From Deltaproteobacteria bacterium (GTDB lineage: Bacteria; Desulfobacterota; Binatia; HRBIN30; JACQVA1), in contig JACQVA010000226.1 of assembly GCA_016210005.1 (NCBI GenBank), positions 1 through 43,614 on the forward strand: a stretch of 43,614 nt of DNA, read 5' to 3'. Under the pieces are notes generated by a model. The model saw nothing but the letters and a program-made list of their open reading frames with translations, searched no databases and was not told the DNA's origin. Shown here in pieces: positions 6,166 to 37,337 of this stretch (positions are counted from its first letter, which is position 1; every line of letters begins with the position of its first letter). The position numbers were made by a program, and so were the translations under genes.

Positions 6166-7218
6166 ATGAAGTTCGACCTCTCTGAAGACCAAGCGCTGTT
6201 GCGCCAATCGACGCGCGACTTCCTCACCAGCGAGTGTCCACTCGAACGCTCGCGTAAGGTGATGGAGGACAACCCCGACGGCTATGAATCCTCCGAATGG
6301 CAGCGCCTAGCGGAGATGGGCTACCTTGGCCTGATGCTGCCGCCGAGCGTTGGCGGCCAAGGCCTTGGCGCCATCGAGCTGGCCATCGTGCTCGAAGAAG
6401 TCGGCCGCGCGTGTATGCCCGGCCCGTATCTCGACGCCGTCCTGACCGGCGCCGTGCTCAACGCCGCCGGCGGGCAGGAGGCCCTGCTCGCGGATATCAG
6501 CTCGGGCAAGAAGCTCGTGACCATAGCCCGCGATGACGCCGCGTTCGCCGGTAACCCGGGCAGGCCCGCCCGATGCGAAGCCGGGCGGGTGCGCGGCACG
6601 AAGTACTTCGTGCCGTTCGCGGCACAAGCGGATGCACTGCTGGTGACGACCCCGGCGGTGATTTGGCTGGTGCAGCGGCCGTTCACGGTCGCGCCGCTGC
6701 CGACCATCGATCTAGCGCAGCGCTTCGGCAAGGTGACGCTTGACCACGCGGCTGAGAAGATCGGCGCCGCCAGTCTGCTCGATCGCGCCGATCAGCTTGC
6801 CGCCATCGGGGCCAGCGCCACTCTGCTTGGCATCATGAGCCGAGCGCTGGAGATCACCATTGACTACGTCCAAACCCGCCGCACCTTCAACCGGCCGATT
6901 GGCTCGTTCCAGGCGTTGCAGCATCGCTTGTCGGAGATGCTGCTGCGGACCGAGTCAACGCGCTCGGCGGCGTACCGCGCCGCCTGGTGCTTCGACACCG
7001 GCGACGCTGACACCGCCTTGGCTTGCGCCAGCGCCAAGGCTTACGCCGGCGATGCCTCGCGGCTGGTCTGCGGCGAGGCCATCCAGATGCACGGCGGCAT
7101 CGGTTTCACCTGGGAGCTGGATCTGCACTTCTATTTCAAGCGCGCCAAGACATTGGAGCAGCACTACGGTTCGACCGAGGTACAGCTCGAGCACGCCCTG
7201 GCGGCGGCTGGTTTCTGA
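6166..7218 (+). CDS. Acyl-CoA dehydrogenase, small-type subunit
   Basis: This 350-residue acyl-CoA dehydrogenase belongs to the divergent class with a weak central FAD motif and a C-terminal QMHGGIGFTWELDLHFYFKRAK stretch from residue 307. Glu317 of FTWE is present, while the YEGT position reads YGST and lacks the usual catalytic Glu. Its middle domain is shorter than in the upstream subunit. The 12-base spacing from the preceding gene suggests co-translation, and the pair may form one alpha2beta2 enzyme like ChsE1-ChsE2 of steroid side-chain oxidation. That is inferred from architecture only. The C-terminal 44 residues align without gaps with those of the dehydrogenase at 18812. Confidence 0.88.
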   Translation: MKFDLSEDQALLRQSTRDFLTSECPLERSRKVMEDNPDGYESSEWQRLAEMGYLGLMLPPSVGGQGLGAIELAIVLEEVGRACMPGPYLDAVLTGAVLNAAGGQEALLADISSGKKLVTIARDDAAFAGNPGRPARCEAGRVRGTKYFVPFAAQADALLVTTPAVIWLVQRPFTVAPLPTIDLAQRFGKVTLDHAAEKIGAASLLDRADQLAAIGASATLLGIMSRALEITIDYVQTRRTFNRPIGSFQALQHRLSEMLLRTESTRSAAYRAAWCFDTGDADTALACASAKAYAGDASRLVCGEAIQMHGGIGFTWELDLHFYFKRAKTLEQHYGSTEVQLEHALAAAGF

Positions 7219-10875: not shown

Positions 10876-11568
10876 TCATGAGCCCATGAAGGATCTTGCG
10901 CGGGAAGTGGACTTCGGGGCGCGCAGCAGCCGCAGCAGATTGTCCTGCAACACCGCCAGCGGTCCGTCGAAGTCGGGCGCGTCGGTGCGCATGATCGACT
11001 CGACCACCATGCCGCCGAGCGTGGTGAACGTCACGCGCCGCGCCAGCTCCACCTGCTCTTGCGACAGCTGCAAGTGACCGAAGAGATGATCCCAGGCGGC
11101 GATGATCACGTTCCACACCCGCGCCCGGTAGCGCCGCGCCGGGTTGCGCCGCGGCGGCTCGTAGCGGTGACTGAGCATGATCTCGAAGAAGGCCCGGAAC
11201 CCGGGGCGGTTCACCAGCCGCCACGCGCCTTCGACCAGCACCTTGACGCGGTTCTCCAGCGTGTCGGCGGTAGGCGAGATGCGCCGGCTGTCGAGCAGAA
11301 ACTCGTCGAGCGCGTGATCGAGTACCGCCTGGATGATGGCGTCCTTGGTGCCGAAGTGATGCTGGATGCCGCCCCAAGACACCCCCGAACGCTCCGCGAT
11401 GCGGGTGACGCTGGCGTGCTTGTAGCCGGACTCGGCGATGCAGTCGACGGCGGCCGTGATTACCCGCTCGCGAGTGTCGTCGCTGCGCTCCGCCTGCGTG
11501 CCGCGCCCCCGCGTCCCCTTCGCCCTGCGCGTTGCCTTCGAAGTCATTGCCGATACCGTGCGAGCCAT
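10876..11568 (-). CDS. TetR/AcrR family transcriptional regulator
   Basis: The N-terminal part contains a TetR helix-turn-helix: RERVITAAVDCIAESGYKHASV, then TRIAERSGVSWGGIQHHFGTKDAII, ending in the usual HHF-x-x-K-D. The C-terminal ligand-binding domain is all-helical and unspecific. I start it at the ATG at 11568 (230 residues); an upstream in-frame GTG at 11661 and a second ATG at 11547 are possible, and none has a strong ribosome binding site. It is divergent from the large acyl-CoA operon starting at 11763. By analogy with KstR-type regulators it probably represses that operon and responds to an acyl-CoA intermediate; this is inference from position. Confidence 0.85.
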   Translation of the reverse strand: MARTVSAMTSKATRRAKGTRGRGTQAERSDDTRERVITAAVDCIAESGYKHASVTRIAERSGVSWGGIQHHFGTKDAIIQAVLDHALDEFLLDSRRISPTADTLENRVKVLVEGAWRLVNRPGFRAFFEIMLSHRYEPPRRNPARRYRARVWNVIIAAWDHLFGHLQLSQEQVELARRVTFTTLGGMVVESIMRTDAPDFDGPLAVLQDNLLRLLRAPKSTSRARSFMGS

Positions 11569-11762
11569 CTCTTTGAGCCTTTGCCGGAGAAGCAATTCGA
11601 GATGATTGCAAATCGAGCGCGTGACGTCCAGACGCAACGCGCGCGCCGCGGAGGGTGCCACAGGGTGCCACGGCGCGGGTTGACGGGTCCGCTGATTGTT
11701 GCTAGCTCAGCGCCCGGCAGTTCCAATCATAGATAATTGCAACCGGCGACGAGACGTGACCC
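11569..11762. promoter_or_regulatory. Divergent regulatory region between TetR and the acyl-CoA operon
   Basis: About 190 bases separate the two starts and should contain both promoters and the TetR operator. Visible elements are an AT-rich island around 11722-11743 (ccaatcatagataattgc), a short palindrome gattgcaaatc near 11593-11605, and a direct repeat of gtgccacggg-like words at 11655-11672. I cannot say which, if any, is the operator. Confidence 0.4.
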
Positions 11763-12950
11763 ATGGATTTCGAGCTGACGCCCGAGCAAGAGCGGCTCCA
11801 GCGGGAGATCTATGCGTATCTCGACGCCCTGGTGACCCCCGCGCTGCTGGCGGAGCTGCACGAGAAGCCTGAGGGCGGCGGCCCCGACAACGCGCCGGAG
11901 TACACGAAGTGTTTGCGCCGGCTCGGCGACGATGGCTGGCTCGGACTCGGCTGGCCCACGCAGTACGGCGGTCAGGGCAAGGGGCCGATCGAGCAGTACA
12001 TCTTCTTCGATGCCGTGTCCGGGTACCACGCGCTGCCGATTCCGATGCTGGCGCTCAACACCGTTGGGCCGACGATCATGCAGGTCGGCACGGCGCAGCA
12101 GAAGGAGCGCTTCCTGCCGCCGATTCTGAAGGGCCGATTGAACATCGGCATCGGCTACACCGAGCCCGGCGCCGGCAGCGATCTCGCCTCGCTCCGCACC
12201 ACGGCCGTCCGCGACGGCGATTCGTACGTGATCAACGGCCAGAAGGTGTTCACCACGCTAGCCGACTTCTGTGACTACATCTGGCTCGCCGCGCGCACGG
12301 ACCCGACGGCCAAGAAGCACAAGGGGATCTCGATCTTCATGATCGACACCAAGAGCCCCGGCTTCCGCTTCGACCCGATCAAGATCATGGGCGGGTTCCG
12401 CTCCAACATCACGTACTACGACGACATGCGCGTGCCGAAGGACTGCCTCATCGGCGAGGAGAACGCCGGCTGGTACTACATCAACACGCAGCTGGCGATG
12501 GAGCGCATCACGCTGGTGCCGCATTCGCGGGCTGGGCGGCTGGTCGGCGAGATGATCCGCTGGGTCAAGCAGACTACGCTCGATGGGGTGCGGCTGGCCG
12601 ACGTGCCGTGGGTGCGCACCCGGCTGGCCGAGATGGCGCGCGACACCGAGGTGCTCAAGCTCATGAACTACCGCGTGGCGTGGCTGATCGCGCAGGGCAT
12701 TGTGCCGTTCGCCGAGGCCTCGATGGTCAAGATCTTCGGCTCCGAGCTGTTCCAGCGCATCCACGGTTTGGGCATGCAAGTGATGGGATCATTCGGCCAG
12801 CTGGAACCGGGCAACGAGTTGGCACCGCTCGGCGGCAAGCTCGAGCGCGAGTATCTCGCGAAGATGCTGCTGACCTTCGGCGGCGGCGCCAACGAAGTGC
12901 TGCGGGATGTCGTGGCCATCATGGGCCTAGGAATGCCGCGCTCGCGTTAG
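11763..12950 (+). CDS. Acyl-CoA dehydrogenase, first gene of the Ltp/DUF35 operon
   Basis: This 395-residue acyl-CoA dehydrogenase has the FAD-site sequence YTEPGAGSDLASLRTTA from residue 132 and INGQKVFTT, as in full-length 'large-type' subunits. The C terminus reads FGGGANEVLRDVVAIMGLGMPR, so the position of the catalytic Glu in YEGT is a Gly. It is preceded by the divergent TetR region and opens the operon. Its likely partner is the shorter dehydrogenase that closes the operon at 18812, by analogy with two-subunit enzymes of steroid side-chain degradation. The predicted role is alpha,beta-dehydrogenation of a branched or bulky acyl-CoA; the actual substrate cannot be read from sequence. 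Confidence 0.9.
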   Translation: MDFELTPEQERLQREIYAYLDALVTPALLAELHEKPEGGGPDNAPEYTKCLRRLGDDGWLGLGWPTQYGGQGKGPIEQYIFFDAVSGYHALPIPMLALNTVGPTIMQVGTAQQKERFLPPILKGRLNIGIGYTEPGAGSDLASLRTTAVRDGDSYVINGQKVFTTLADFCDYIWLAARTDPTAKKHKGISIFMIDTKSPGFRFDPIKIMGGFRSNITYYDDMRVPKDCLIGEENAGWYYINTQLAMERITLVPHSRAGRLVGEMIRWVKQTTLDGVRLADVPWVRTRLAEMARDTEVLKLMNYRVAWLIAQGIVPFAEASMVKIFGSELFQRIHGLGMQVMGSFGQLEPGNELAPLGGKLEREYLAKMLLTFGGGANEVLRDVVAIMGLGMPRSR

Positions 12951-12960
12951 GAGGAGATGT

Positions 12961-13067
12961 TCACCACCGAGGCACAGAGACCACAGAGAACCGAGTCGGG
13001 GATTTCAGCATGACGCGCGCCGTACACTTGTTCTGCATGACTGATCATCTCTGTGCCTCGGTGGTGA
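12961..13067. repeat. Dispersed-type repeat bounded by a 20-base perfect inverted repeat
   Basis: tcaccaccgaggcacagaga (12961-12980) recurs as its exact reverse complement at 13048-13067 around a 67-base centre. The 'accgaggcacagaga(ccacagag)' word is typical of short dispersed repeats I know from many environmental bacterial genomes. It lies inside the operon, between the first dehydrogenase and the first hotdog gene, and would fold into a strong hairpin in the mRNA. Confidence 0.8.
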
Positions 13068-13115
13068 GTCCTCCTGTGAGAAGCGCAGTCTGCAGCAAGA
13101 AGGAGGAGACTAGTG

Positions 13116-13619
13116 ATGAGTTTCAATCAATCCGAAGCAGCCAAGCTCGTGGGGGCTGAGTCCGGCGCCATCCCAGCGCTCGACCGGGTCACCAAATCCG
13201 ACATCCGGCACTGGTGCGAAGTGATCGGTGATGCCGACCCCGACTACGCCGAGAAGATCAAACAGGGAGCCAAGACCGCGCCACCGGCGATGACGATGGT
13301 GTGGTCGCAGCCGCCGCTGTGGCCCCCCTCGGAGGCGAGCGAACCGCACGAGAAGCTGCTGCGGATGCTCGACGAGGCGGGCTACAAAGGCACCGCCGGC
13401 GTCAAACTCGAACAGGAGTTCCAGCAGCCCATCCGCATCGGCGACCGCTTGAGTTTCACGGTCAAGGTGGCCGGACTCTCCCAGGGCGAGGAGGCCACCA
13501 AGATGGGCAAGGGCTACCTGGTCGATTTGCACTACGCAATCCGTGACGGCCGCGGCCAGGTGGTCAGCACGCAGACATACACGGTGTTCAAGTTCCGCAG
13601 CCTGGAACTACCAAGTTGA
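13116..13619 (+). CDS. MaoC/FAS1-like hotdog dehydratase subunit, catalytic His replaced
   Basis: The 167-residue protein is an N-terminal MaoC-type (FAS1-like dehydratase) hotdog domain: SDIRHWCEVIGDADPDYAEKIKQGAKTAPPAM, then QQPIRIGDRLSFTVKV. Hydratase-2 enzymes use Asp and His in GDxNPxH; here the motif is GDADPDY, so Asp39 remains but the His position is Tyr44. This is the state of non-catalytic or half-site subunits in heteromeric hydratases such as ChsH1-ChsH2. The ATG at 13116 lies nine bases after aggagg; a GTG three bases earlier is an equal alternative. The next gene is a paralogue, and the third is a MaoC protein with the intact pair. Confidence 0.8.
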   Translation: MSFNQSEAAKLVGAESGAIPALDRVTKSDIRHWCEVIGDADPDYAEKIKQGAKTAPPAMTMVWSQPPLWPPSEASEPHEKLLRMLDEAGYKGTAGVKLEQEFQQPIRIGDRLSFTVKVAGLSQGEEATKMGKGYLVDLHYAIRDGRGQVVSTQTYTVFKFRSLELPS

Positions 13620-13647
13620 CGCAGCCGGCGAAGGAGGTTCAGCCAGT

Positions 13648-14259
13648 ATGAGCAGTGCAAACACAGGCGACATTCGGCCGTTCTCGTCGCCCGCGGAGGT
13701 GGCGTTCGACTACTCGCGCATCGAACGCTTCGTCGGCGCCAGCTCCGAGTGGCACGAGGGCCACGACCAGGTCAGCGAGTCGGACATCCGCCACTGGTGC
13801 GAGGTGATGCAGGACGCCAACCCGCTGTATACCGACGAGGCTTACGCCAAGCAGAGCAAGTACGGCGGCATCATCGCGCCGCCGCAGATGGTGCAGACGT
13901 GGTCGCTCGACCCGATGCCGGAAGCGCTCAATCGCTTCGTGCGCAACGACCCGCCGTTCAAAGAAGACCCGCACAACCAGCTCTTCGGCATCATCGACGC
14001 GATGGGCTACCACGGCGTTGTCGCCACCGCGCAAACGCAGGAATACCTGCGGCCCGTGCGCCCGGGCGACACCATCCGCTCCCGCATCACCGTCGGCAAC
14101 GTCTCGCGCTACGACCACTACACCCGCATGGGCGTGGGACGCTACGTTGATCTGATCTACACCTTCATCAATCAACGAGATGAGGAAGTCTGCGTGGCGA
14201 GCTTCCGGGTGCTGAAGTATCGGCCGCCGTTGGATACCAGACGGCTCTACCAGGGCTAA
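13648..14259 (+). CDS. MaoC/FAS1-like hotdog dehydratase subunit, second copy
   Basis: This 203-residue protein repeats the pattern of the preceding gene: SDIRHWCEVMQDANPLYTDEAYAKQSKYGGIIAPPQM, followed by EYLRPVRPGDTIRSRITV. The hydratase motif reads DANPLY (Asp56 to Tyr61), again Tyr where the catalytic His should be. It is longer, with an N-terminal extension and an insertion around residues 88-115. The start at 13648 follows a strong aaggaggt ribosome binding site; an upstream in-frame ATG at 13543 lies inside the previous gene and lacks one. It probably assembles with its neighbours into one heteromeric enoyl-CoA hydratase. Confidence 0.82.
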   Translation: MSSANTGDIRPFSSPAEVAFDYSRIERFVGASSEWHEGHDQVSESDIRHWCEVMQDANPLYTDEAYAKQSKYGGIIAPPQMVQTWSLDPMPEALNRFVRNDPPFKEDPHNQLFGIIDAMGYHGVVATAQTQEYLRPVRPGDTIRSRITVGNVSRYDHYTRMGVGRYVDLIYTFINQRDEEVCVASFRVLKYRPPLDTRRLYQG

Positions 14260-14275
14260 CAGCAAAGGAGACATC

Positions 14276-14704
14276 ATGGCGAAGCTGTATTGGGAAGACG
14301 TGAAGGAAGGGCAGGAGCTGCCCGAGCAGTCGCGGGACGTCGATTCGACGCTGATCATCTCGGGCGCAATCTGGGCGTCGCACGACTTCATGCCGGTGCA
14401 TCACGATCCGAAGTTCGCGCAGGAGAAAGGCGCGCCGGACATCTTCATGAACATCCTGACCACCAACGGACTGGTGGGCACCTACCTCGGCAACTGGACC
14501 GGGCCCGACGGCGAACTGAAGAAGCTCAGCATCAGCCTCGCCGTGCCCAACTTTCCCGGCGACAAGCTGCGCATGAACGGCAAGGTGACGAAGAAGTACA
14601 AGGATGGCGGCTTGAACCTGGTCGAAGTGACCGTCGCCGGCGAAAATCAGCTCGGCCCGCACGTCACCGGCGCGGCCATCATCGCGCTGCCGGCAAAGGG
14701 CTGA
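14276..14704 (+). CDS. MaoC-like enoyl-CoA hydratase, Asp/His pair intact
   Basis: A 142-residue single hotdog domain opening with LYWEDVKEGQELPE. The region ASHDFMPVHHDPKFA keeps Asp37 and His42 in the spacing of the hydratase-2 motif, so this is the likely catalytic subunit of the three adjacent hotdog genes. The rest, including PNFPGDKLRMNGKVTKKY, is the usual second half of the fold. It follows an aaaggag site and lies 16 bases after the previous stop. In the cluster it should hydrate a 2-enoyl-CoA to the 3-hydroxyacyl-CoA that the downstream Ltp-DUF35 proteins could cleave. That sequence of reactions is inferred from known steroid side-chain modules. Confidence 0.85.
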   Translation: MAKLYWEDVKEGQELPEQSRDVDSTLIISGAIWASHDFMPVHHDPKFAQEKGAPDIFMNILTTNGLVGTYLGNWTGPDGELKKLSISLAVPNFPGDKLRMNGKVTKKYKDGGLNLVEVTVAGENQLGPHVTGAAIIALPAKG

Positions 14705-14720
14705 GCGGGAGGCCGGTTCG

Positions 14721-15911
14721 ATGGCCCGAGCAAAGATCACTCTGAAGAACAAGGCCTGCATCGTCGGCATCGGCTCGACCGAGTTCACCCGCAACGCCGG
14801 CCGCAGCGAGATCCACCTCGCGGTTGACGCGGCCATGGGCGCGTGCGCCGATGCGGGAATCCAAAGCGAGCAGATCGACGGCTGCGTCCGCTTCGGCACC
14901 GCCGGCGCGACCGCGATCGAATTTGCCACCGAGTCCGACGTCGCCCGCTGCCTGGGAATTCCCAACCTGCGCTACTTCGTCGAAGCCCCCTGGGGCGGCG
15001 GCGCCTGCTGCGCCACCATCATGCATGCCGCCGCCGCGGTCACGCTGGGGCTGGCGAACTACGTGCTCTGCTTCCGCGCCATCCGCGCCGCCAGCGGCAT
15101 GATGCGCTACGGCCGGCCGGCCAACATTCCCATCGACTCGCACTGGAGCATGACCATGCCCTACGGCTTCCAGAGCCCGACCTCGTGGGTGGCCATGTTC
15201 ACCCGGCGCTGGATGCACGAAACCGGCGCCACCCGCGAGCAGCTCGGCGCCGTGGCCATCGTCAGCAGGGAGAACGCGCTCAAGAACCCGCGAGCGATGT
15301 TCTACGGGCGCCCGCTGAGCATGCAGGAGTATCTTGGATCACCCATGCTGTGCGATCCATTCACGCTTCATGACACGTGCCTGGAAAACGACGGCTGCGT
15401 GGCGCTGATCGTCACCACCGCGGACCGGGCGAAGGACCTCAAGCAGAAGCCGGCCTACATCGCCGGCGTCGGCACGGCGACGGGGTGGGACTCGTACTGC
15501 ATGACCAGCTTCTATCGGCCGGAGATCGGCATTCCGGAAATGGAAGAGGCCGGCAAAGACATGTTCCGCATGGCCGACATGAAGCCGAGCGATATCCAGG
15601 TAGCGCAGCTCTACGACGCCTTTACCTCGCTGGTACCGATGCAAATGGAGGCGCTCGGTTTCGTGAAGAAGGGCGAGGGCGGGCCGTTCTGCGAAGGCGG
15701 TGACCGCATTCGCCCCACCGGACAGCTACCGATCAACACCGCCGGTGGCATGCTCTCCGAGTCGTACATCCACGGCATGAACGGCATAGCCGAGGGCGTG
15801 CGGCAGATTCGCGGCACGTCCACGACGCAGATCAAGGGCGCCCAGCGCGTCCTGGTTACCGGCGGCCTCGGCGTGCCGACGAGCGCGCTCATCCTGACGA
15901 AAGGAAAGTAG
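14721..15911 (+). CDS. Ltp-type thiolase-fold protein, probable acyl-CoA retro-aldolase
   Basis: The 396-residue protein has the thiolase-superfamily layout of lipid-transfer/SCP-x thiolase-like proteins: ACIVGIGSTEFTR at the start, and late motifs VAQLYDAFT, LGFVKKGEGGPF and LPINTAGGMLSE. By hand alignment the thiolase nucleophile Cys is replaced by Gly (EAPWGGGACC segment; the two Cys are three to four residues off register), and the HPxG active-site His motif is replaced by NTAGG. This matches Ltp2-like aldolases rather than ketothiolases. The next gene is a DUF35 protein, the obligate partner of Ltp2. Expected reaction: C-C cleavage of a 3-hydroxyacyl-CoA to a ketone or aldehyde plus acetyl- or propionyl-CoA. 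Confidence 0.82.
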   Translation: MARAKITLKNKACIVGIGSTEFTRNAGRSEIHLAVDAAMGACADAGIQSEQIDGCVRFGTAGATAIEFATESDVARCLGIPNLRYFVEAPWGGGACCATIMHAAAAVTLGLANYVLCFRAIRAASGMMRYGRPANIPIDSHWSMTMPYGFQSPTSWVAMFTRRWMHETGATREQLGAVAIVSRENALKNPRAMFYGRPLSMQEYLGSPMLCDPFTLHDTCLENDGCVALIVTTADRAKDLKQKPAYIAGVGTATGWDSYCMTSFYRPEIGIPEMEEAGKDMFRMADMKPSDIQVAQLYDAFTSLVPMQMEALGFVKKGEGGPFCEGGDRIRPTGQLPINTAGGMLSESYIHGMNGIAEGVRQIRGTSTTQIKGAQRVLVTGGLGVPTSALILTKGK

Positions 15912-15916
15912 TCGCC

Positions 15917-16351
15917 ATGGCGTTGCAACTGAACCGACGATACGTGAAGTACTTCTTCGAGCCCGTCGCCGAGTCGTTCGAGGAGGGGTTTTGGGAAGCG
16001 GTCAAGCGGCGCGAGCTGGTCTTCCAGCGCTGCGGCCAGTGCCGCGAGTGGCTGCACCCACCGCGGCCGATGTGCCACAAGTGCAAGAGCTTCGATCTGC
16101 GCTGGGAGAAGTCGACCGGCAAGGGCAAGATCTACAGCTACGTCACCTTCACCCGCGAGGTGAACCCGCTCTACGTCGTGCCCTTCGAGGTCGTGCTGGT
16201 CGAGATGGACGACGAGAAGCCGGTGCGCATGGTGGCCAACATGCTCGATACCAAGCCGGAGGAACTTTACATCGGCATGCCGGTCGAGCTGGACTTCTTC
16301 GACGTGACGCCGAAGCAGCCGATCCCGATCTTCAAGAAGCGAACCGCTTGA
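15917..16351 (+). CDS. DUF35 OB-fold/zinc-ribbon protein, partner of the first Ltp protein
   Basis: At 144 residues this is a complete DUF35 protein. An N-terminal helix (FFEPVAESFEEGFWEAVK) precedes a rubredoxin-like zinc ribbon with four cysteines (39, 42, 53, 56; CGQC and CHKC) and an OB-fold acyl-CoA-binding domain (GKGKIYSYVTFTREV, PFEVVLVEM). In ChsH2 the DUF35 domain is the C-terminal half of a hydratase subunit and activates Ltp2; here it is a separate gene. It starts six bases after the Ltp stop, so the two should be made together. Possible function: structural and substrate-binding partner of the aldolase. Confidence 0.88.
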   Translation: MALQLNRRYVKYFFEPVAESFEEGFWEAVKRRELVFQRCGQCREWLHPPRPMCHKCKSFDLRWEKSTGKGKIYSYVTFTREVNPLYVVPFEVVLVEMDDEKPVRMVANMLDTKPEELYIGMPVELDFFDVTPKQPIPIFKKRTA

Positions 16352-16378
16352 GTCGGTTGCCAAGATAAGGAGCGAACC

Positions 16379-17146
16379 ATGAGAACATCGCCGCACTTCT
16401 TATACGAGAAGAAGGGCCACATCGCCGTCATGACGTGGAACCGGGCGGAGAAGCGCAACTGCTTCACCCCGGAAATGATCGATGCCTTCTACGATGCCTT
16501 CGGTGACTTCGACAAGGATGACAACCTCTACGTCGCCATCCTGGCGAGCACCGGTGAAAAGGCGTGGTGCGCCGGCGGTGACCTGGACACCATGATCCCC
16601 GCGGTCACCTCCGGCAAGTTCAAGGTCAATGAGGATCCGACCAAGCGGGTCTTCCACGACATCTTCAAGCCGATCATCGCCGCGGTCAACGGCTTTGCCA
16701 CCCTCGAGTTGATTCAGGGGACCGATCTCTGCGTAGCCTCGGAGAACGCCAGCTTCGCCCTCGGTGAAGTGCGCTGGGGCATGATCGCGGCCGGCGGTTC
16801 GCACGTGCGCTTTCCGCGCTACCTGCCGTGGTGGATCGCGATGGAGGTGCTGCTGACCGGCCGGCCCATCAGCGCCCGGCGCGCGTACGAGGTCGGGATG
16901 GTGAACCGGTTGGTGCCGACGGTGGACCAGGTGCTGCCGACGGCGATGGAGCTGGCCGAGATCATTTGTGAGAATGGTCCACTGGCGGTGCGTACGGCCA
17001 AGGAGATCGCCGTGCGCCAGTGGAATCACGAGCCCGCCTACGTGCTCGAAAACGCCCTGTTCCAGCGGGTGCGCAACTCCGAGGACGCCCAAGAAGGGCC
17101 GCGCTCGTACATGGAGCGGCGCAAACCCAACTTCAAGGGACGTTAG
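16379..17146 (+). CDS. Enoyl-CoA hydratase/isomerase (crotonase) family protein
   Basis: A 255-residue crotonase. The oxyanion-hole regions are AWCAGGDLD (63-70) and NGFATLELIQGTDL (104-117). Both catalytic glutamates of hydratases have counterparts: Glu130 in ALGEVRWG and Glu156 in IAMEVLLTG. The second region reads FATLEL rather than the common G-G-G, which may alter substrate shape. It lies between the two Ltp-DUF35 modules and follows aaggag. It could hydrate, isomerise or hydrolyse an acyl-CoA produced between two cleavage rounds; crotonase sequence alone does not settle which. Confidence 0.87.
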   Translation: MRTSPHFLYEKKGHIAVMTWNRAEKRNCFTPEMIDAFYDAFGDFDKDDNLYVAILASTGEKAWCAGGDLDTMIPAVTSGKFKVNEDPTKRVFHDIFKPIIAAVNGFATLELIQGTDLCVASENASFALGEVRWGMIAAGGSHVRFPRYLPWWIAMEVLLTGRPISARRAYEVGMVNRLVPTVDQVLPTAMELAEIICENGPLAVRTAKEIAVRQWNHEPAYVLENALFQRVRNSEDAQEGPRSYMERRKPNFKGR

Positions 17147-17206
17147 CCCGCACCCGCGGGCGGATAGCTTCACCGCCGGGAGCGGGCAACCGAGAAGGGA
17201 AGAGGG

Positions 17207-18376
17207 ATGACTGCTCTGAAAGACCAGACCTGCATCGTCGGCATCGGACAGACCCCGTACACGCGCGCTAAGCAGACGGATGGGACCAACCTCACCATTC
17301 AACTGAAGGCTTGCGAGGCGGCGATCGCCGACGCCGGTCTGAGCAACAAACAGATCGACGGTATCTTGCCGTTTGCCAGCCTCAACATCGCCGAGGACTT
17401 CGCCGTGCATCTGGGCATCCAGGACCTGCGCTATCAGGCGACGTTGCACGTCGGCGGGGCCGCACCCGGAGCTTCCATTGCCACGGCGGCGATGGCGGTC
17501 AACGCCGGCGTTTGCACTTACGCGCTGATTCCGGGCGGCTGGTACGGCTATGCCGGCCGGCGGGTGCGCGAAGTGGTGACCGCCGACCCGACCGTGATGT
17601 CGGGCGGAGTAACGGCGCGTGACTTCTACTTCCCGTACGGCCTGACCGCGCCGGTGCAGTGGTTCTCGTACATGGCGCGCCTGCACATGGACGAGTTCGG
17701 CACCAAGCCGGAGCACTTGGGCGCGGTCGCCGTTGCCTGCCGCAAGCACGCGCAACTCAATCCCGCCGCCCTCATGCGCGGTAAGCCCATGACGATGGAG
17801 GATTACCTGGCCTCGCCGCTGATCTCGGATCCGTTCCGGCTGCTGGACTGCTCGCTGGAAGCGGACGGCGCCTGTGCTTTCGTCGTCACCACCGTCGAGC
17901 GGGCGTGCGACCTGAAGCGCAAGCCGGTCTACATCACCGGGTTCGCCCAAGGCCAACCGTTCCCGGCCGACGACATCGTGACCCGCGAGCACATGTTCAA
18001 TCTCGGGCATACCTCGGCCGCGCCGCGCGCGTTTGCCATGGCCGGAATCACCCCCGAGGACATCGACTTCGCCGAGATCTACGATCCCTTCACCTTCCAG
18101 GTGATCCAGCAGCTCGAGGAGATGGGCTTCTGCAAACGCGGCGAGGGCGGGCCGTTCGTCACCGGCGGCCGGATCGAACTGGGCGGACAATTGCCGGTCA
18201 ACACCCACGGTGGTTTACTGTCGGAAGCCCACGTGCTCGGCATGAACCACTTCGTCGAGGCCGTGAAGCAGTTGCGCTGTGACGCGGGCGAACGCCAGGT
18301 GAAGAACGCCAAGCTGGGGTTGGTGACCGGTTTCGGTGACTTTGGCGATGGCAGCATCGTCATTCTGAGGAACTGA
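17207..18376 (+). CDS. Second Ltp-type thiolase-fold protein, probable acyl-CoA retro-aldolase
   Basis: This 389-residue protein is a diverged paralogue of the Ltp protein at 14721. It shares TCIVGIGQTPYTR at the start, IDFAEIYDPFT, GFCKRGEGGPFV and LPVNTHGGLLSEAH near the end. By hand alignment the thiolase Cys is a Gly in HVGGAAPGAS, and the catalytic HPxG is absent. It is followed ten bases downstream by its own DUF35 gene, so the cluster has two complete aldolase modules. The ATG directly follows a gggaagaggg purine run. I infer retro-aldol cleavage of a different intermediate or a second round on the same side chain. Confidence 0.82.
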   Translation: MTALKDQTCIVGIGQTPYTRAKQTDGTNLTIQLKACEAAIADAGLSNKQIDGILPFASLNIAEDFAVHLGIQDLRYQATLHVGGAAPGASIATAAMAVNAGVCTYALIPGGWYGYAGRRVREVVTADPTVMSGGVTARDFYFPYGLTAPVQWFSYMARLHMDEFGTKPEHLGAVAVACRKHAQLNPAALMRGKPMTMEDYLASPLISDPFRLLDCSLEADGACAFVVTTVERACDLKRKPVYITGFAQGQPFPADDIVTREHMFNLGHTSAAPRAFAMAGITPEDIDFAEIYDPFTFQVIQQLEEMGFCKRGEGGPFVTGGRIELGGQLPVNTHGGLLSEAHVLGMNHFVEAVKQLRCDAGERQVKNAKLGLVTGFGDFGDGSIVILRN

Positions 18377-18386
18377 GGGGGTTGCG

Positions 18387-18815
18387 ATGACACAACAATC
18401 CGACACCACCTACGACAAGCCCTTGCCGTTGCTGCAGGGCATGGCGCAGGAGTTCTACAACCACTGCAAGAACGGCGAGCTGCGCTTCCAGCGCTGCAGC
18501 CAGTGCGGCAAGTGGCGGCACGTGCCCCGCGCGATGTGCGCGGCGTGCGGTTCGTGGCAGTGGGAGTGGGCCAGGTCGAGCGGCCGCGGTAAGGTTTTCA
18601 CCTGGACCGTGGTGCGCCGGCCGATGCATCCTGGCTTCAGTAACGATACCCCCTACGCCCCGGTTGTCGTCGAGTTGGCGGAAGGCGTGCGTATGGTGAC
18701 CTGGCTCGTCGACGTAGCTCCGGACGAGATCAGGAGGGACATGGCGGTCGAAGTGGTGTTCGACGCCGTGACCCCCGAGGTCACTCTGCCGAAATTCAGG
18801 AAGGTCAAATCGTGA
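18387..18815 (+). CDS. Second DUF35 OB-fold/zinc-ribbon protein
   Basis: A 142-residue DUF35 protein with the zinc-ribbon cysteines 37, 40, 51 and 54 (CSQC and CAAC) and an OB-fold with GRGKVFTWTVVRRPMHPGF and APVVVELAEGVRMVTWLVDV. It is the probable partner of the Ltp protein just upstream. The stop codon overlaps the GTG start of the following acyl-CoA dehydrogenase (GTGA), which indicates translational coupling. Confidence 0.88.
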   Translation: MTQQSDTTYDKPLPLLQGMAQEFYNHCKNGELRFQRCSQCGKWRHVPRAMCAACGSWQWEWARSSGRGKVFTWTVVRRPMHPGFSNDTPYAPVVVELAEGVRMVTWLVDVAPDEIRRDMAVEVVFDAVTPEVTLPKFRKVKS

Positions 18816-19942
18816 ACTTCGAACTCGACGAGCAGCAGCAGATGCTGCAAACGACGGCGCGGAATTTCCTCGCCGCCGAATGCGACAAGTCGGTGGTCCG
18901 ACAGATCGAGGCCAGCGACACCGGCCATTCACCGCAACTGTGGCGGCAGATGGCCGCGCTCGGATGGACCGGCATCATCGTTCCCGAGCAGTACGGCGGC
19001 GTCGGTTTGGGCCTGCTCGATCTCGCCGTGCTCTTCGAGGAGATCGGCCGCGCCGCCTACGACAGCCCGCTGTTTGGCACCGTCATGGCAACGCTGGCGC
19101 TCGTAGCCGGCGGAACGAAAGCACAGCAGCAATCGCTGTTGCCCCAGGTCGCAACGGGGGAGCTGATCCTGACCCTGGCAATCGCCGAGCGCGAGGTGTC
19201 CCACGACCTTCGCTTCGTGTCGGTCTCGGCGCAGCCGGGGGGCGATGGTTACGTGTTGCGCGGCACAAAACTGTTTGTCCCTTACGCCACGGTTGCCGGT
19301 GAAATACTCGTGGTGGCGAGAACGGCGGGAGCGGCAGGAGACGAAGCCGGGCTTTCCCTCTTCATGGTGAACGCCAAGGCCGCCGGGGTCCGCTGTCGCC
19401 CGCTCAAGACGATTGCGCCGGACAAGCAGTTTCAGGTCGATCTCGAGGGCGTACCGGTCGCGGTAGACCGGATCGTGGGTCCGCTGAACGACGGCTTCGC
19501 GCTGCTTCAGCCCGTGCTGGCACAGGCTGCCGCGGTTCAGTGTGCCGAGATGGTGGGCAATGCCCAGCACGAGCTGGACATCACCGCGCAGTACACCAAG
19601 GAGCGGGTGCAATTCGCTCGCCCGCTCGGCAGCTTCCAAGCGGTGCAACATCACCTGGCGAACATGTTCACCGACGTGCAAGGGGCGCGCTGGAGTTCCT
19701 ATCAGGCGATTGCTCGCCTGAGCCGCGGCCTGTCCGCCGCGCGCGAGCTTGCCGTCGCCATGGCGTTCACCTGCGACGCCTGCCAGCGCGTCTCCTTCCT
19801 AGCCCAGCAACTCCATGGCGGCGTCGGCGTCGATATGGCCTACGACCTACAGTTCTACTATCGGCGCGCGAAAGCCCTGGAGCTACGCTTCGGCGCCAGC
19901 CCGGTCCACCTGCAAGCGCTCGAAAGACACGTCGGGCTGTGA
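18812..19942 (+). CDS. Acyl-CoA dehydrogenase, last gene of the Ltp/DUF35 operon
   Basis: A 376-residue, small-type acyl-CoA dehydrogenase that starts with GTG inside the previous stop codon. It lacks the strong EPGAGSD motif of large-type subunits. Its C-terminal 44 residues align gaplessly with the dehydrogenase at 6166, but where that protein has GFTWE this one has GVDMA, so Glu317 there corresponds to Ala343 here. The YEGT Glu is also absent (FGAS). It may be a non-catalytic or cofactor-binding half of a heteromeric enzyme with the dehydrogenase at 11763. The first and last genes of one operon encoding the two halves would be unusual; this is inference. Confidence 0.85.
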   Translation: MNFELDEQQQMLQTTARNFLAAECDKSVVRQIEASDTGHSPQLWRQMAALGWTGIIVPEQYGGVGLGLLDLAVLFEEIGRAAYDSPLFGTVMATLALVAGGTKAQQQSLLPQVATGELILTLAIAEREVSHDLRFVSVSAQPGGDGYVLRGTKLFVPYATVAGEILVVARTAGAAGDEAGLSLFMVNAKAAGVRCRPLKTIAPDKQFQVDLEGVPVAVDRIVGPLNDGFALLQPVLAQAAAVQCAEMVGNAQHELDITAQYTKERVQFARPLGSFQAVQHHLANMFTDVQGARWSSYQAIARLSRGLSAARELAVAMAFTCDACQRVSFLAQQLHGGVGVDMAYDLQFYYRRAKALELRFGASPVHLQALERHVGL

Positions 19943-34380: not shown

Positions 34381-36153
34381 CTAGCCCGCCGCCGAAGCGC
34401 AGCCGAGGACGTGCTCGGGCGAGCCCGGTGACACCAGCGCGCCGGCCAGGCGCAGGGCCAGGGCGATGATCGTCAGGGTCGGGTTGTAGCCGGAGCCGGT
34501 GACGAAGACGCCACCGTCGGCGCAATACAAGTTGTCGAGGTCGTGGAACTTGCCGAAGCGGTCGCAAACCGAATCGGCGGGGCTCGTACCCATGCGCAGG
34601 CCGCCGAGAATATGGCGTGACGCCGGCGGCACCGCCGGATCGAAGGGCTGGAAGAAGCCGTAGGCGGCGCCCGCGGCTTCGAGCAGCTCCAGCATCTTCG
34701 GCTTGTAGAACTCCGAGGCGTTCAGCTCGAAGGCGTGGTTGCGGTAAGTCAGCCGCGGCACCGGCAGGCCGAAAACATCACGCACGGTGGGGTCGAGGTC
34801 GACGCGATTGGCCGGCTGCGGCGCGTCTTCGCCCTGCATGATCAGCACCGCGATGTGGGCGTGGAACGGGCTTTCGACCAGCAGCTGCTTGAACGAGACA
34901 TTGAACAGCCGCGCGAAGCCCACCGCCTCCGGCCGCAAGCTTTCGCGGGCGGCGATGATCGGTTGCGAGGAGGTGCCGAACTCGACCACGCCGGCGAGGT
35001 GCGGCCAATCGCTGCGCAACTCCGCGCCCCCCGCTTTGACGCCGCGGAAGTCGCTGATCACGTGCGTCACCGAGCGGCCACGCTCGCCGTGCAGGCGCTG
35101 CTTGAAGATGCCGACGCCGGTGGTCTGGAAGTGGAACATCATGTGCCGGCCGAGGTGGCCGCCGGCATCGGTGATGCCCGACAACCAGCAGATTCGGGCG
35201 CTTTCAATCGGGCTGGCGGCCAAGATTACGTGATCGGCCGCCGCCGATTGCATCTGGCCGTTGTCGTCGATGTATTCGACGCTGACCACGCGCCGCCCGC
35301 TGCCGTCGCGCACCAGCCGGCTCACGTGCGCGTGGTAGCGCAGCTGGCAATTGCCGGTGAGCAGCGCCCGGCGCAGGGTGGTGACCGCCGGCGAACCCTT
35401 GGCGTTGCGCGGGCAGCCGTAACCCGAGCAAAAACCGCAGCTGACGCAGGGCGAACGGCCATCGTACGGTTGGGTGTTGATGGCCGACTCCAAGTTGTAG
35501 GGGTGATAGCCGAGCTGTTTGGCACCGTGGGCCAACACCCGGGCCACATACATCGGCGGCTGCGGTGGCAACGGCAACGGCCGGCTGCGGGGCGGAGCGA
35601 AGGGATTGTCGTCTTCACCGGTTGTGTCGCCGGCAACGCCGGAGAGGCACTCGGCTTCGGTGTAGAAAGGTTCGAGTTCTTCGTAGCTCAACGGCCAGTC
35701 GGCGAAGCTGGTGCCCGGGTAGTTGCGGCCCGCGGCACTCAAGGCCGAGGCCATGCGGAAATCGACCGGGGTGAAGCGCGGGTAGGCGACGCCCGAGATG
35801 ACCGCGGCGCCGCCGACGTTGCGCGTCAGGATGTTCACGTCGGGGTGCGCCTGCGCCGTTTCACTCTCGCTCTGGCGGAAGGTGCGGGGTTCGAGCAGCG
35901 GGTCTTGATAGACGAAGTGGCGGAGCGCGTTCTTGATCTCATCGTTGCTGAACAGCGGCCAGGGGATGTGGCCGGAGTGATCCAGGCCCGGGAACGGGTT
36001 GACGCCGGCTTCGAGCACCAACACCTTCCAGCCCGCTGCCGCGAGCACGTGTGCGGCGGCCGAGCCCCCCGCGCCGCTGCCGACGATCAAGGCATCGAAA
36101 CGGTCGAGGCTGGTGTTGCCGAGAACGCCGGAAACACTGGCGGGCAGGCTCAT
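34381..36153 (-). CDS. GMC family oxidoreductase
   Basis: A 590-residue FAD enzyme of the glucose-methanol-choline family. It has the FAD loop GSGAGGSAAA from residue 25 with Glu48 at the end of strand 2, and the C-terminal active-site segment RHILGGLRMG plus ADGGVFVTGSGYNPTLTIIALALR. A Cys cluster CVSCGFCSGYGC (Cys 236, 239, 242, 247) recalls the motif of membrane-bound gluconate- or sorbitol-type dehydrogenase large subunits. The start ATG overlaps the stop of the upstream gene (ATGA), so the two are translationally coupled; that partner is a gluconate 2-dehydrogenase subunit-3-like protein. Substrate is probably an alcohol or sugar acid. There is no obvious signal peptide; export may be by co-transport with the Tat partner. 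Confidence 0.9.
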   Translation of the reverse strand: MSLPASVSGVLGNTSLDRFDALIVGSGAGGSAAAHVLAAAGWKVLVLEAGVNPFPGLDHSGHIPWPLFSNDEIKNALRHFVYQDPLLEPRTFRQSESETAQAHPDVNILTRNVGGAAVISGVAYPRFTPVDFRMASALSAAGRNYPGTSFADWPLSYEELEPFYTEAECLSGVAGDTTGEDDNPFAPPRSRPLPLPPQPPMYVARVLAHGAKQLGYHPYNLESAINTQPYDGRSPCVSCGFCSGYGCPRNAKGSPAVTTLRRALLTGNCQLRYHAHVSRLVRDGSGRRVVSVEYIDDNGQMQSAAADHVILAASPIESARICWLSGITDAGGHLGRHMMFHFQTTGVGIFKQRLHGERGRSVTHVISDFRGVKAGGAELRSDWPHLAGVVEFGTSSQPIIAARESLRPEAVGFARLFNVSFKQLLVESPFHAHIAVLIMQGEDAPQPANRVDLDPTVRDVFGLPVPRLTYRNHAFELNASEFYKPKMLELLEAAGAAYGFFQPFDPAVPPASRHILGGLRMGTSPADSVCDRFGKFHDLDNLYCADGGVFVTGSGYNPTLTIIALALRLAGALVSPGSPEHVLGCASAAG

Positions 36154-37337
36154 GCCGGCACCTCGAAACAATACGGGGCATCAAACGTCCGGCCGCCGGT
36201 GACGCTGCTGATGGCGCCGAGGAATTGCTTGATGTTGGCACTGAAACCGCGGCAGTCTTCTTCGGGGTTGGGGCCCGAGTTGGGTTTTTCCGAACGTTCG
36301 CGATAGCCGGGGATGGATTCGTCGTAGATGGTATAGCCCAAGGGCTGGCTATCGCCGTCGAAGCCGATAAGCTGCCAGCCGCGGCGGTCGCGGTTGCCGC
36401 CGTACTCGGGCGCGCACAGCATGCCCTCGATGGTGTGGTAGCGCAGCAGGGTGACGAAGTCGATATCGGCCTGATCCAGCACCGTGCCTTGCTCATCGGT
36501 CGCCAGCTCCGCGAACGGCTTGCCGAAGATGTCGCGGCTGATTGCTTCGAGCGACGCCAGCCCTTCGCGATAGCGGCGGCGCATATCGGTCTCCAGCAGT
36601 GTGGTTGCCAGCGGGTTGGCGGCGGCCGCCGGCACGGCCGCGGCGCCGAGCATGCGGATCTTCCAGCTCAACGCTTGCAGGCGGGAGAGCGGGAGGAATT
36701 GGCGGAAGAACTCGGGCGGGTAACTGAGGACGGTGGTTGCCGCTACCCGGCCGGAAGCCGCGGCGCCAGCCGGCGCCGGTACGACGTGGCATGACACGCA
36801 CGGTGTCGCGCCGGTGGGAAAGTGCGGCTGCGGCTGGCGTCCGCTGAACGGTCCGCCGGCGAGAATCGGCCGGGCATTGAAGACGGCGGTCTCGGCGCGC
36901 GTTATGTCGGAGGCGTCGATGATGCCGTCACCGTCCACATCGCCGGCGTCACGGCAATTGCCCTGAGCACCGTTTGCCTGAGCGACCGTCGCGGTGAGAT
37001 CGGCGGCGGTGACATAGCGGTCGCAGTTGGCGTCGGTGCCGGGGGCGAAGGCCAGCATGGCGCGGATATACGTGACCACGCCACACTCGCGCGCCCCGAC
37101 GCCCAGGCTATCGGACGGTACAATGCGGGCGGTGGCGGCGTCGAGGATTGCGAGTTCCTCCTCGGTGAGCAACCAGGCATCGGTGGTGGCCCCCGGCGCA
37201 CCGCGGCCTACGGCCCGCGCCAGTGGCAACGGCAACAGTGCAGCGGCAGTGCCGGCGGCGAGCAAGCCGAGCACCTGACGGCGCCGGAGTTGGGTGGTGA
37301 CGAGCGCAAGCGCCTTGGTCGAACCGGCGATCTCCAT
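36150..37337 (-). CDS. Gluconate 2-dehydrogenase subunit-3-like protein with dockerin-like loops and a CxxCH site
   Basis: A 395-residue protein. It begins with a Tat signal (LRRRQVLGLLAAG at 17-29, then a hydrophobic stretch and AXA). The subunit-3 family part is split: TEEELAILDAATARIVPSD at 58-76, and DIDFVTLLRYHTIEGMLCAPEYGGN from 291. Between them is an insertion with two dockerin-like calcium loops, DANCDRYVTAAD (102-113) and DVDGDGIIDASD (133-144), and a haem-c motif CVSCH at 180-184. Usual subunit-3 proteins are about 200-250 residues without these. It is coupled to the GMC gene by the ATGA overlap. It probably escorts that enzyme through Tat and may hold a cytochrome-like electron acceptor. 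Confidence 0.82.
   Translation of the reverse strand: MEIAGSTKALALVTTQLRRRQVLGLLAAGTAAALLPLPLARAVGRGAPGATTDAWLLTEEELAILDAATARIVPSDSLGVGARECGVVTYIRAMLAFAPGTDANCDRYVTAADLTATVAQANGAQGNCRDAGDVDGDGIIDASDITRAETAVFNARPILAGGPFSGRQPQPHFPTGATPCVSCHVVPAPAGAAASGRVAATTVLSYPPEFFRQFLPLSRLQALSWKIRMLGAAAVPAAAANPLATTLLETDMRRRYREGLASLEAISRDIFGKPFAELATDEQGTVLDQADIDFVTLLRYHTIEGMLCAPEYGGNRDRRGWQLIGFDGDSQPLGYTIYDESIPGYRERSEKPNSGPNPEEDCRGFSANIKQFLGAISSVTGGRTFDAPYCFEVPA

Follow-up and report, generated by a model that had tools for sequence, protein, structure and literature searches.

We analysed a 43,614-nucleotide stretch of DNA (hereafter the window) from a Deltaproteobacteria bacterium of the class Binatia (assembly GCA_016210005.1, contig JACQVA010000226.1, forward strand), in which ten plus-strand genes for acyl-coenzyme A (acyl-CoA) dehydrogenase, hotdog, crotonase, Ltp-family and DUF35 proteins lie beside a divergent gene for a TetR-family regulator. 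A sequence-only reading of this DNA had seen here a TetR-controlled operon for the retro-aldol degradation of an acyl-CoA side chain, and inspection of the open reading frames of the window recovered all eleven genes, the divergent regulator included, at the positions and in the order that it proposed. The operon has the following features, with PDB matches given by chain and E-value.

10876..11661, minus strand: TetR-family regulator, divergent from ACAD1, start codon uncertain; PF00440 at 42.8 bits against a cut-off of 24
11763..12950, plus strand: ACAD1, acyl-CoA dehydrogenase subunit like 4x28_A/Tcur3483, with Glu247; 4x28_A 3.6e-103, 6wy8_B 3.2e-96
12961-12980 and 13048-13067, no strand: inverted repeat with perfect 20-nt arms and a 67-nt spacer in the ACAD1-HD1 gap, separate from the enzymes
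13116..13619, plus strand: HD1, ChsH2-MaoC-like hotdog protein with Tyr for the catalytic His, presumed non-catalytic; 4w78_A/4wnb_A 2.7e-14
13648..14259, plus strand: HD2, ChsH2-MaoC-like hotdog protein with Tyr for the catalytic His, presumed non-catalytic, DANPLY motif; 4w78_A 4.2e-19
14276..14704, plus strand: HD3, ChsH1-like hotdog protein with an Asp37/His42 dyad; 4wnb_B 1.9e-21
14721..15911, plus strand: LtpA, Ltp2-like putative retro-aldolase with Tyr298 as predicted base, Tyr349 as predicted acid and a YDAF motif; 6ok1_A 2.4e-104
15917..16351, plus strand: D35A, stand-alone DUF35 protein (zinc ribbon and OB), four Cys, likely partner of LtpA; 6ok1_B 1.8e-26 against 9myr_B 3.5e-11
16379..17146, plus strand: ECH, crotonase, nearest NCBIfam model EchA19 (below cut-off), oxyanion-hole loop shortened by three residues, both Glu (Glu110 and Glu130) present
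17207..18376, plus strand: LtpB, member of the Ltp family; Tyr292 conserved, Pro294 in place of Cys (YDPF), His342 aligned with Tyr344 of TcLtp2
18387..18815, plus strand: D35B, DUF35 protein, four Cys, likely partner of LtpB; 6ok1_B 5.9e-25, 9myr_B 7.4e-24
18812..19942, plus strand: ACAD2, Tcur3481-like acyl-CoA dehydrogenase subunit, flavin motif ERxQFxRPLGxFQ, 4-base overlap with D35B; 6wy8_A 1.9e-52

Along the plus strand the intergenic gaps measure 60 bases or less, except that between ACAD1 and HD1 (165 bases), and by eye a purine stretch resembling a ribosome site precedes nine of the ten starts, that of ACAD1 being weak. Family names agreed for all ten proteins included in a Pfam scan; ACAD2, which lay outside that scan, was identified through NCBIfam and the PDB. 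For nine of the ten structural proteins (all but ECH) the best PDB E-values ranged from 2.7e-14 (HD1) to 2.4e-104 (LtpA). The same eleven genes recur in the same order in a second genome of the class, G008, where ACAD2 is truncated by the contig end, and the ratio of nonsynonymous to synonymous substitution rates (dN/dS) between the operon genes of the two genomes was 0.034-0.191. The PDB matches, the recurrence in G008 and the low dN/dS values together argue that this gene set is not a chance arrangement. Judged by its sequences, the operon varies the known ChsE/ChsH/Ltp2 retro-aldol scheme: its ChsH2 is split, its hydratase has an additional subunit that lacks the catalytic dyad, and it carries a conserved but altered ECH-LtpB-D35B cassette. 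We found no description of this operon type in the titles and abstract beginnings of the literature searched.

We hold with moderate confidence that the operon serves in the retro-aldol removal of a short, branched acyl side chain carried by a bulky acyl-CoA, the cassette being a later addition with an altered role. Gene order, families, residues, conservation and co-occurrence were read from sequence, and the complexes, reactions, substrate class and direction of change proposed here follow from homology. In the proposed pathway, ACAD1 and ACAD2 would form an alpha2-beta2 flavoenzyme, one contributing the Glu base and the other the flavin motif, that yields an enoyl-CoA, which HD3 would hydrate while HD2 (and HD1), non-catalytic, accommodate the bulky part of the substrate. 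LtpA, held by the separate D35A, would then cleave the beta-hydroxyacyl-CoA, with Tyr298 accepting the hydroxyl proton; the carbon-carbon break would give a ketone (or aldehyde) and the enolate of propionyl- or acetyl-CoA, which Tyr349 would protonate. ECH, LtpB and D35B would have joined the same pathway later, from an ancestral ordinary module with an intact crotonase loop and a Sal-like Tyr/Cys pair; the loop and the Cys would each have been lost.

The dehydrogenase, hydratase and LtpA

The best PDB match of each of ACAD1, HD1, HD2, HD3, LtpA, D35A and ACAD2 was a chain of the ChsE-type, ChsH1/ChsH2 or Ltp2/ChsH2-DUF35 machinery, which, with the residues described below, bears out the proposed retro-aldol set for the LtpA module. 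Glu247 of ACAD1 aligns with Glu247 of 4x28_A, a position that we take to be the catalytic base, and is kept in all eight aligned homologues (the row of locus L041, a paralogue match, being excluded). The flavin motif of ACAD2, ERVQFARPLGSFQ, aligns with 6wy8_A. Judging by these residues, base and flavin motif are split between two subunits, as in the ChsE-type alpha2-beta2 dehydrogenase.

Among the hotdog proteins, HD1 and HD2 are nearest to the ChsH2 MaoC chain of 4w78/4wnb (4w78_A/4wnb_A being the sole PDB matches of HD1 at E <= 0.1), and HD3 is nearest to the ChsH1 chain, 4wnb_B; the ChsH1 and ChsH2 chain labels are opposite in 4w78 and 4wnb, and we followed those of 4wnb. The Asp/His dyad of HD3 is conserved in nine of nine aligned homologues, and in the Chloroflexota copies of HD1 the motif is reduced further. 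According to the available portion of PMC11321319, the dyad is confined to ChsH1 and ChsH2 carries Tyr in place of the His. Because the dyad occurs in HD3 alone and Tyr stands in both HD2 and HD1, the hydratase is predicted to consist of one catalytic and two inert hotdog proteins, HD1 being by its residues a second dyad-less ChsH2-like subunit. This refines the expectation of three hydratase subunits: there are three hotdog genes, only one of them with the dyad.

As the sequence-only reading had also noted, DUF35 is a separate gene, so that by Pfam the counterpart of ChsH2 is divided into HD2 and D35A, unlike the fused MaoC-DUF35 form. Stand-alone DUF35 genes also occur on a Rhodococcus plasmid and a Sphingopyxis plasmid, and a Comamonas testosteroni TA441 mutant that makes the MaoC and DUF35 parts of ChsH2 as separate proteins is described, in the accessible part of PMC12502768, as retaining both activities. 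The same text holds DUF35 essential for the aldolase, whereas an earlier view cited in the portion of PMC11321319 consulted has it seemingly dispensable. D35A and D35B each carry four Cys, as against the Cys3His1 zinc site of the DUF35 partner of Sal.

LtpA has Tyr298 and Tyr349 at the positions of Tyr294 and Tyr344 of TcLtp2, which act there as base and acid (PMC12329534, in part), and Gly at the position of the thiolase nucleophile Cys. In a tree of Ltp proteins, LtpA fell inside an Ltp2-like group of 39 rows (support 100/98), at an unresolved fork beside 30 rows that include TcLtp2 (95/87). The underlying alignment kept 50 of 57 rows after removal of near-identical sequences, with 11 loci that are parts of longer ones skipped; the tree was built from the C-terminal 405 residues of every row, includes three genes in duplicate (L025/L091, L029/L092 and L028/L090) and carries long-branch warnings, and the residue comparison left out one fragment (L053 7391). 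In the alignments of the core genes, L041 lacks ACAD1 and HD1 owing to a contig end, so its rows for these genes, like its D35B row and the ACAD2 and D35B rows of L010-L012, are paralogue matches and were not counted; those of L044, L090, L061 and L038 represent homologues in canonical operons. The dN/dS values for L041 and L085 include paralogue matches and were not used.

The TetR protein shares 79% identity with its G008 counterpart over 210 codons. An operator palindrome between TetR and ACAD1 was considered and rejected, as the inverted repeats in the interval are weak and differ in form in G008. A small mobile or repetitive extragenic palindrome (REP)-like element may account for the inverted repeat between ACAD1 and HD1: its 18-nt core had no exact match in 108 loci, and the corresponding gap in G008 has no comparable inverted repeat.

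The ECH-LtpB-D35B cassette

Close relatives of LtpA were found in G008 (94% identity), in a third genome of the class, G014 (91%), and in three Chloroflexota metagenome-assembled genomes (75-78%), while in the next members of the class relatives reach at most 50%; the six carriers of this LtpA subtype form one clade (100/99). Since identity is high across phyla and low within the class, these values suggest that the subtype spread by horizontal transfer. The order ACAD1-HD1-HD2-HD3-LtpA-D35A is kept in all three Chloroflexota loci (L010, L011 and L012). In L010 the next gene after D35A is ACAD2, truncated at the contig end, and ACAD2 also comes next at the G014 locus (L009/L041), whose contig starts at HD2; in L011 other genes follow D35A, and L012 ends there. 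The window and G008 carry ECH-LtpB-D35B between D35A and ACAD2, and because the two flanking genes adjoin in L010 and G014 the cassette looks to have been inserted into a core operon.

Of 148 class genomes, the same three (the window's genome G000, G008 and G014) hold both the loop-deleted ECH and the LtpA subtype, and no other holds either; this form of ECH has so far turned up solely in members of the class with this LtpA. By chance alone such an overlap would arise once in 529,396, a figure that overstates the association, as two of the three are congeneric. ECH and LtpA were scored across the class with at most 18 and 12 candidates per genome, respectively. Among 395 genomes drawn from the phylum, a draw that did not include G008 and G014, the loop-deleted ECH appeared in the window's own genome alone.

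Two further observations concern the surroundings of these loci. In G014, a gene for a large subunit of the CoxL/xanthine-dehydrogenase family (L041, 3-2249) lies directly beyond ACAD2, and genes of the same type lie near ordinary LtpB-D35B-ECH modules. Downstream of the Chloroflexota operon in L011 (11801-17276) are a DUF6125-like gene, just under the cut-off, and genes for three phytoene-desaturase-like flavin adenine dinucleotide proteins below their cut-offs, possibly hinting at an isoprenoid or alicyclic substrate.

The best NCBIfam score of ECH was on the EchA19 model (232 bits against a cut-off of 400). Glu110 and Glu130 are invariant in all 13 aligned sequences, but the oxyanion-hole loop has a three-residue gap and Ala stands where Gly is expected three residues before the first Glu. 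In the part of PMC6048173 available, ECH enzymes are credited with four conserved residues, and the Gly equivalent to Ms3HPCD Gly110, described as completely conserved, falls within the lost loop. We found 18 ECH matches in the 148 class genomes (E <= 1e-75): in 15 the first Glu is preceded by Gly-Gly (a pattern search showed 14, and L114 is the fifteenth), and the three-residue loss is confined to the other three, those of G000, G008 and G014.

LtpB tied between 6ok1_A and 4u4e in the PDB and scored 335.5 bits on PRK07855, below the cut-off of 469; D35B is about equally near to 6ok1_B and to the Shy DUF35 chain 9myr_B. LtpB has Gly at the position of the thiolase nucleophile Cys. Across 35 LtpB matches in 58 genomes (E <= 1e-90), 32 read YDCF (11, L048 and 20, inspected in separate sets), and the exceptions are those of the window and G008 (YDPF) and of G014, contig C137 (YDAF), which form one clade in the tree (100/100). 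Among farther LtpB-like and crotonase-like proteins, viewed in part, some (for example L043) read YDAF with an intact crotonase loop nearby.

Neither ECH nor LtpB shows signs of decay: dN/dS between the window and G008 was 0.034 for ECH and 0.061 for LtpB, the latter equal to that of LtpA (0.061). Intact relatives of both are present elsewhere in G008 and G014. AlphaFold models gave ECH a crotonase fold and LtpB a thiolase fold, with 6ok1 chains as best matches; confidence was low in and around the active-site loops, and we therefore gave the models no weight for the active sites. Because replacing the Cys abolishes detectable activity in CtSal and the crotonase Gly is described as completely conserved, while both are lost here from genes that are conserved, we think that the cassette has changed role and that its function is probably not the standard hydration and retro-aldol cleavage. 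Of the two aldolase modules foreseen by the sequence-only reading, that of LtpA stands; an active second aldolase is doubtful. A more specific version, possible though short of an even chance in our view, is that the cassette is a neofunctionalised or pseudo-enzyme set whose members changed together under strong selection, serving to scaffold or gate the LtpA complex, or else carrying out a reaction novel to the family.

Rather unlikely, in our estimation, is that both modules are active hydratase-aldolases, working in series or on two substrates, with His342 of LtpB as the acid and ECH still hydrating. The retention of both ECH glutamates and of the LtpB Tyr, the strong purifying selection, and the His that all 35 near LtpBs (14, L048 and 20, inspected in separate sets) have where TcLtp2 has Tyr344 speak for this arrangement. 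However, the same His is present in the YDCF LtpBs and so did not arise as a substitute for the Cys; replacement of Cys304 of CtSal by Ala, Ser or His left no detectable activity according to the text of PMC12329534 at hand; and the completely conserved crotonase Gly lies in the lost loop.

Substrate class and alternative chemistries

The nature of the bulky substrate bears on a further alternative, that the operon belongs to a steroid degrader and takes the C3 (isopropionyl) side chain off sterols or bile acids. Enzymes of steroid side-chain breakdown are the best matches of every core protein, EchA19 is the top-scoring model for ECH, and the genome of the window encodes three KstD-like proteins as well as a canonical ChsE1-ChsH2-ChsE2-ChsH1-Ltp2 operon on contig C99, which weigh against a non-steroid reading. 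One of the KstD-like proteins adjoins a DUF35/acyl-CoA dehydrogenase cluster on contig C262; the three score 594-627 bits, below the cut-offs of 788-789, and reach 336-380 bits on models of 4-oxocyclohexanecarboxylate and related dehydrogenases. The KshA_C family (PF19298) was found in G014 (108.9 bits); in contrast, it was not found in G000 (97.6% complete), G008 or any of the three Chloroflexota carriers, whereas 42 of 145 class genomes are positive, 41 of them over the cut-off. Likewise TIGR03213, a BphC model that stood in for HsaC, had no match in G000 or G008 and one weak partial match in G014, though matches were full-length in G108, G122 and G140 (three of the eight genomes over the cut-off). 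Moreover, G000 already holds a canonical Ltp2 operon. As the genomes are incomplete, these absences are no proof, but on this evidence we regard the steroid alternative as unlikely, and the best fit is a bulky acid, possibly alicyclic, whose side chain is alpha-branched. The view that no steroid ring-cleavage genes are in sight holds for the window, not every gene of which was scanned; in the wider genome, searches for KshA_C and the HsaC proxy gave no match, and the KstD-like proteins were found.

The unannotated Nonomuraea record L036 showed by eye no evident steroid ring cluster among its open reading frames, and curated families were used for the steroid genes in its place. Sterol-like substrates have been proposed for SAR202 Chloroflexi in general (PMC5395668), a paper whose main text does not contain the terms 'thiolase', 'lipid transfer' or 'acyl-CoA dehydrogenase'. 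Separately, G108, G122 and G140 combine KshA_C matches of 260-264 bits with BphC/HsaC-type matches of 367-373 bits and are candidate aerobic steroid degraders in the lineage. Elsewhere in the window are a gene for a double CoA-transferase family III protein (38368-40743, 790 residues; possibly for acid activation), a GMC oxidoreductase gene with a gluconate-2-dehydrogenase subunit 3-like gene (34381-37337; possible oxidation genes) and a further acyl-CoA dehydrogenase gene (6166-7218), the best NCBIfam match of which is IpdE2 (162.7 bits against a cut-off of 450).

That the Ltp-DUF35 pairs are ketothiolases or C-acyltransferases of the BbsAB, PhlABC or archaeal thiolase-DUF35 type, as a common fold and the DUF35 partnership might suggest, was rejected for LtpA and LtpB on residues and tree and is in our judgement extremely improbable: both have Gly for the nucleophile Cys where the thiolase reference 7yvy has ACASG, and the tree parts both from 7yvy (100/99, with a long-branch warning on 7yvy).

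Several observations weigh against our preferred reading, in which the operon cleaves a branched side chain from a bulky acyl-CoA and the cassette has an altered role. The operon has no CoA ligase gene, we are not aware of any such hydratase with three hotdog proteins that has been characterised (no search was aimed at one), and some DUF35 complexes (BbsAB, PhlABC) are true thiolases or acyltransferases. LtpA barely passes PRK07855 (472.7 bits against a cut-off of 469) and has Ala (YDAF) for the oxyanion His296 of TcLtp2 (YDHF), replacement of which caused a ~14-fold loss in the part of PMC12329534 consulted; YDAF is also present in other Ltp2-like rows, including those of canonical gene sets (L044, L090), and the LtpA of L010, from Chloroflexi SZUA-161, reads YAAF, with the Asp of YDxF replaced as well. 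The evidence that cassette and LtpA are coupled comes from three genomes, two of them congeneric, and in G014 ECH and LtpA lie on different contigs. The three Chloroflexota carriers show no loop-deleted ECH, their best ECH matches being 42-46% identical (with the loop intact in the two read). Finally, AlphaFold confidence was low for both cassette enzymes (mean predicted local distance difference test score 67 for ECH and 64 for LtpB).

Relation to known retro-aldol systems

The operon places Ltp2-type machinery, characterised to date for steroids in the literature consulted, in genomes known from metagenomes, and since KshA was not found in five of the six carriers tested, retro-aldol chemistry may also serve other bulky branched acids. 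The cassette also offers a natural test of which residues are needed, pairing a Cys-less, His-bearing aldolase-fold protein with a loop-deleted crotonase, intact relatives of which occur in G008 and G014.

The igr-type operon of Mycobacterium tuberculosis and Thermomonospora curvata, with ORF40-44 of C. testosteroni TA441, has the same enzyme set of ChsE1-ChsE2, ChsH1-ChsH2 and Ltp2, and the window retains the two catalytic Tyr residues of Ltp2, the dyad of ChsH1 and the Tyr-for-His of ChsH2. The window operon differs in its split ChsH2 (HD2 and D35A), the extra dyad-less HD1, the Ala for the YDHF His in LtpA, and the inserted ECH-LtpB-D35B. The genome's own canonical operon on C99 (L044) has homologues of ACAD1 (50% identity), ACAD2 (36%), HD3 (46%) and LtpA (45%), but its ChsH2 is fused (334 residues), it has no separate HD1 and no second cassette, and its Ltp scores 630 bits on PRK07855 as against 473 for LtpA. 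This genome has a large thiolase-fold/DUF35 repertoire, with 19 OB_ChsH2_C (DUF35) matches in all and, on other contigs, several Ltp-like proteins.

PDB matches, residues and tree do not support Shy/Sal, which the sequence-only reading had compared with this operon, as its nearest system. The Sal-Shy system of C. testosteroni shares a thiolase-fold retro-aldolase with a DUF35 partner, and the ordinary LtpB lineage reads YDCF like TbSLP; however, the LtpB of the window lacks the Cys (YDPF, as against the YDC motif with Tyr302/Cys304 of Sal), the window DUF35 proteins have four Cys rather than Cys3His1, and the hydratase is not Shy-type by best match. In the tree, LtpB lies with Ltp2-like rows, apart from CtSal, whose long branch makes its own placement unsure; neither Ltp groups with the thiolase.

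The closest counterparts of the cassette are modules of the same three genes within the class (L078-L084, L086 and L089), with 59-67% identity in LtpB and 55-60% in ECH. Across 11 ordinary LtpB loci the three genes are adjacent in nine; in L088 ECH lies ~5 kb away, and L087 has no ECH within its stretch. A molybdenum-hydroxylase large subunit gene and an amidohydrolase gene (Pfam names taken from one example, L081) each lie near LtpB in 10 of 12 loci compared, mostly upstream of the modules. These modules keep YDCF and the AGG loop and are ordered LtpB-D35B-ECH, in contrast to the ECH-LtpB-D35B order of the window.

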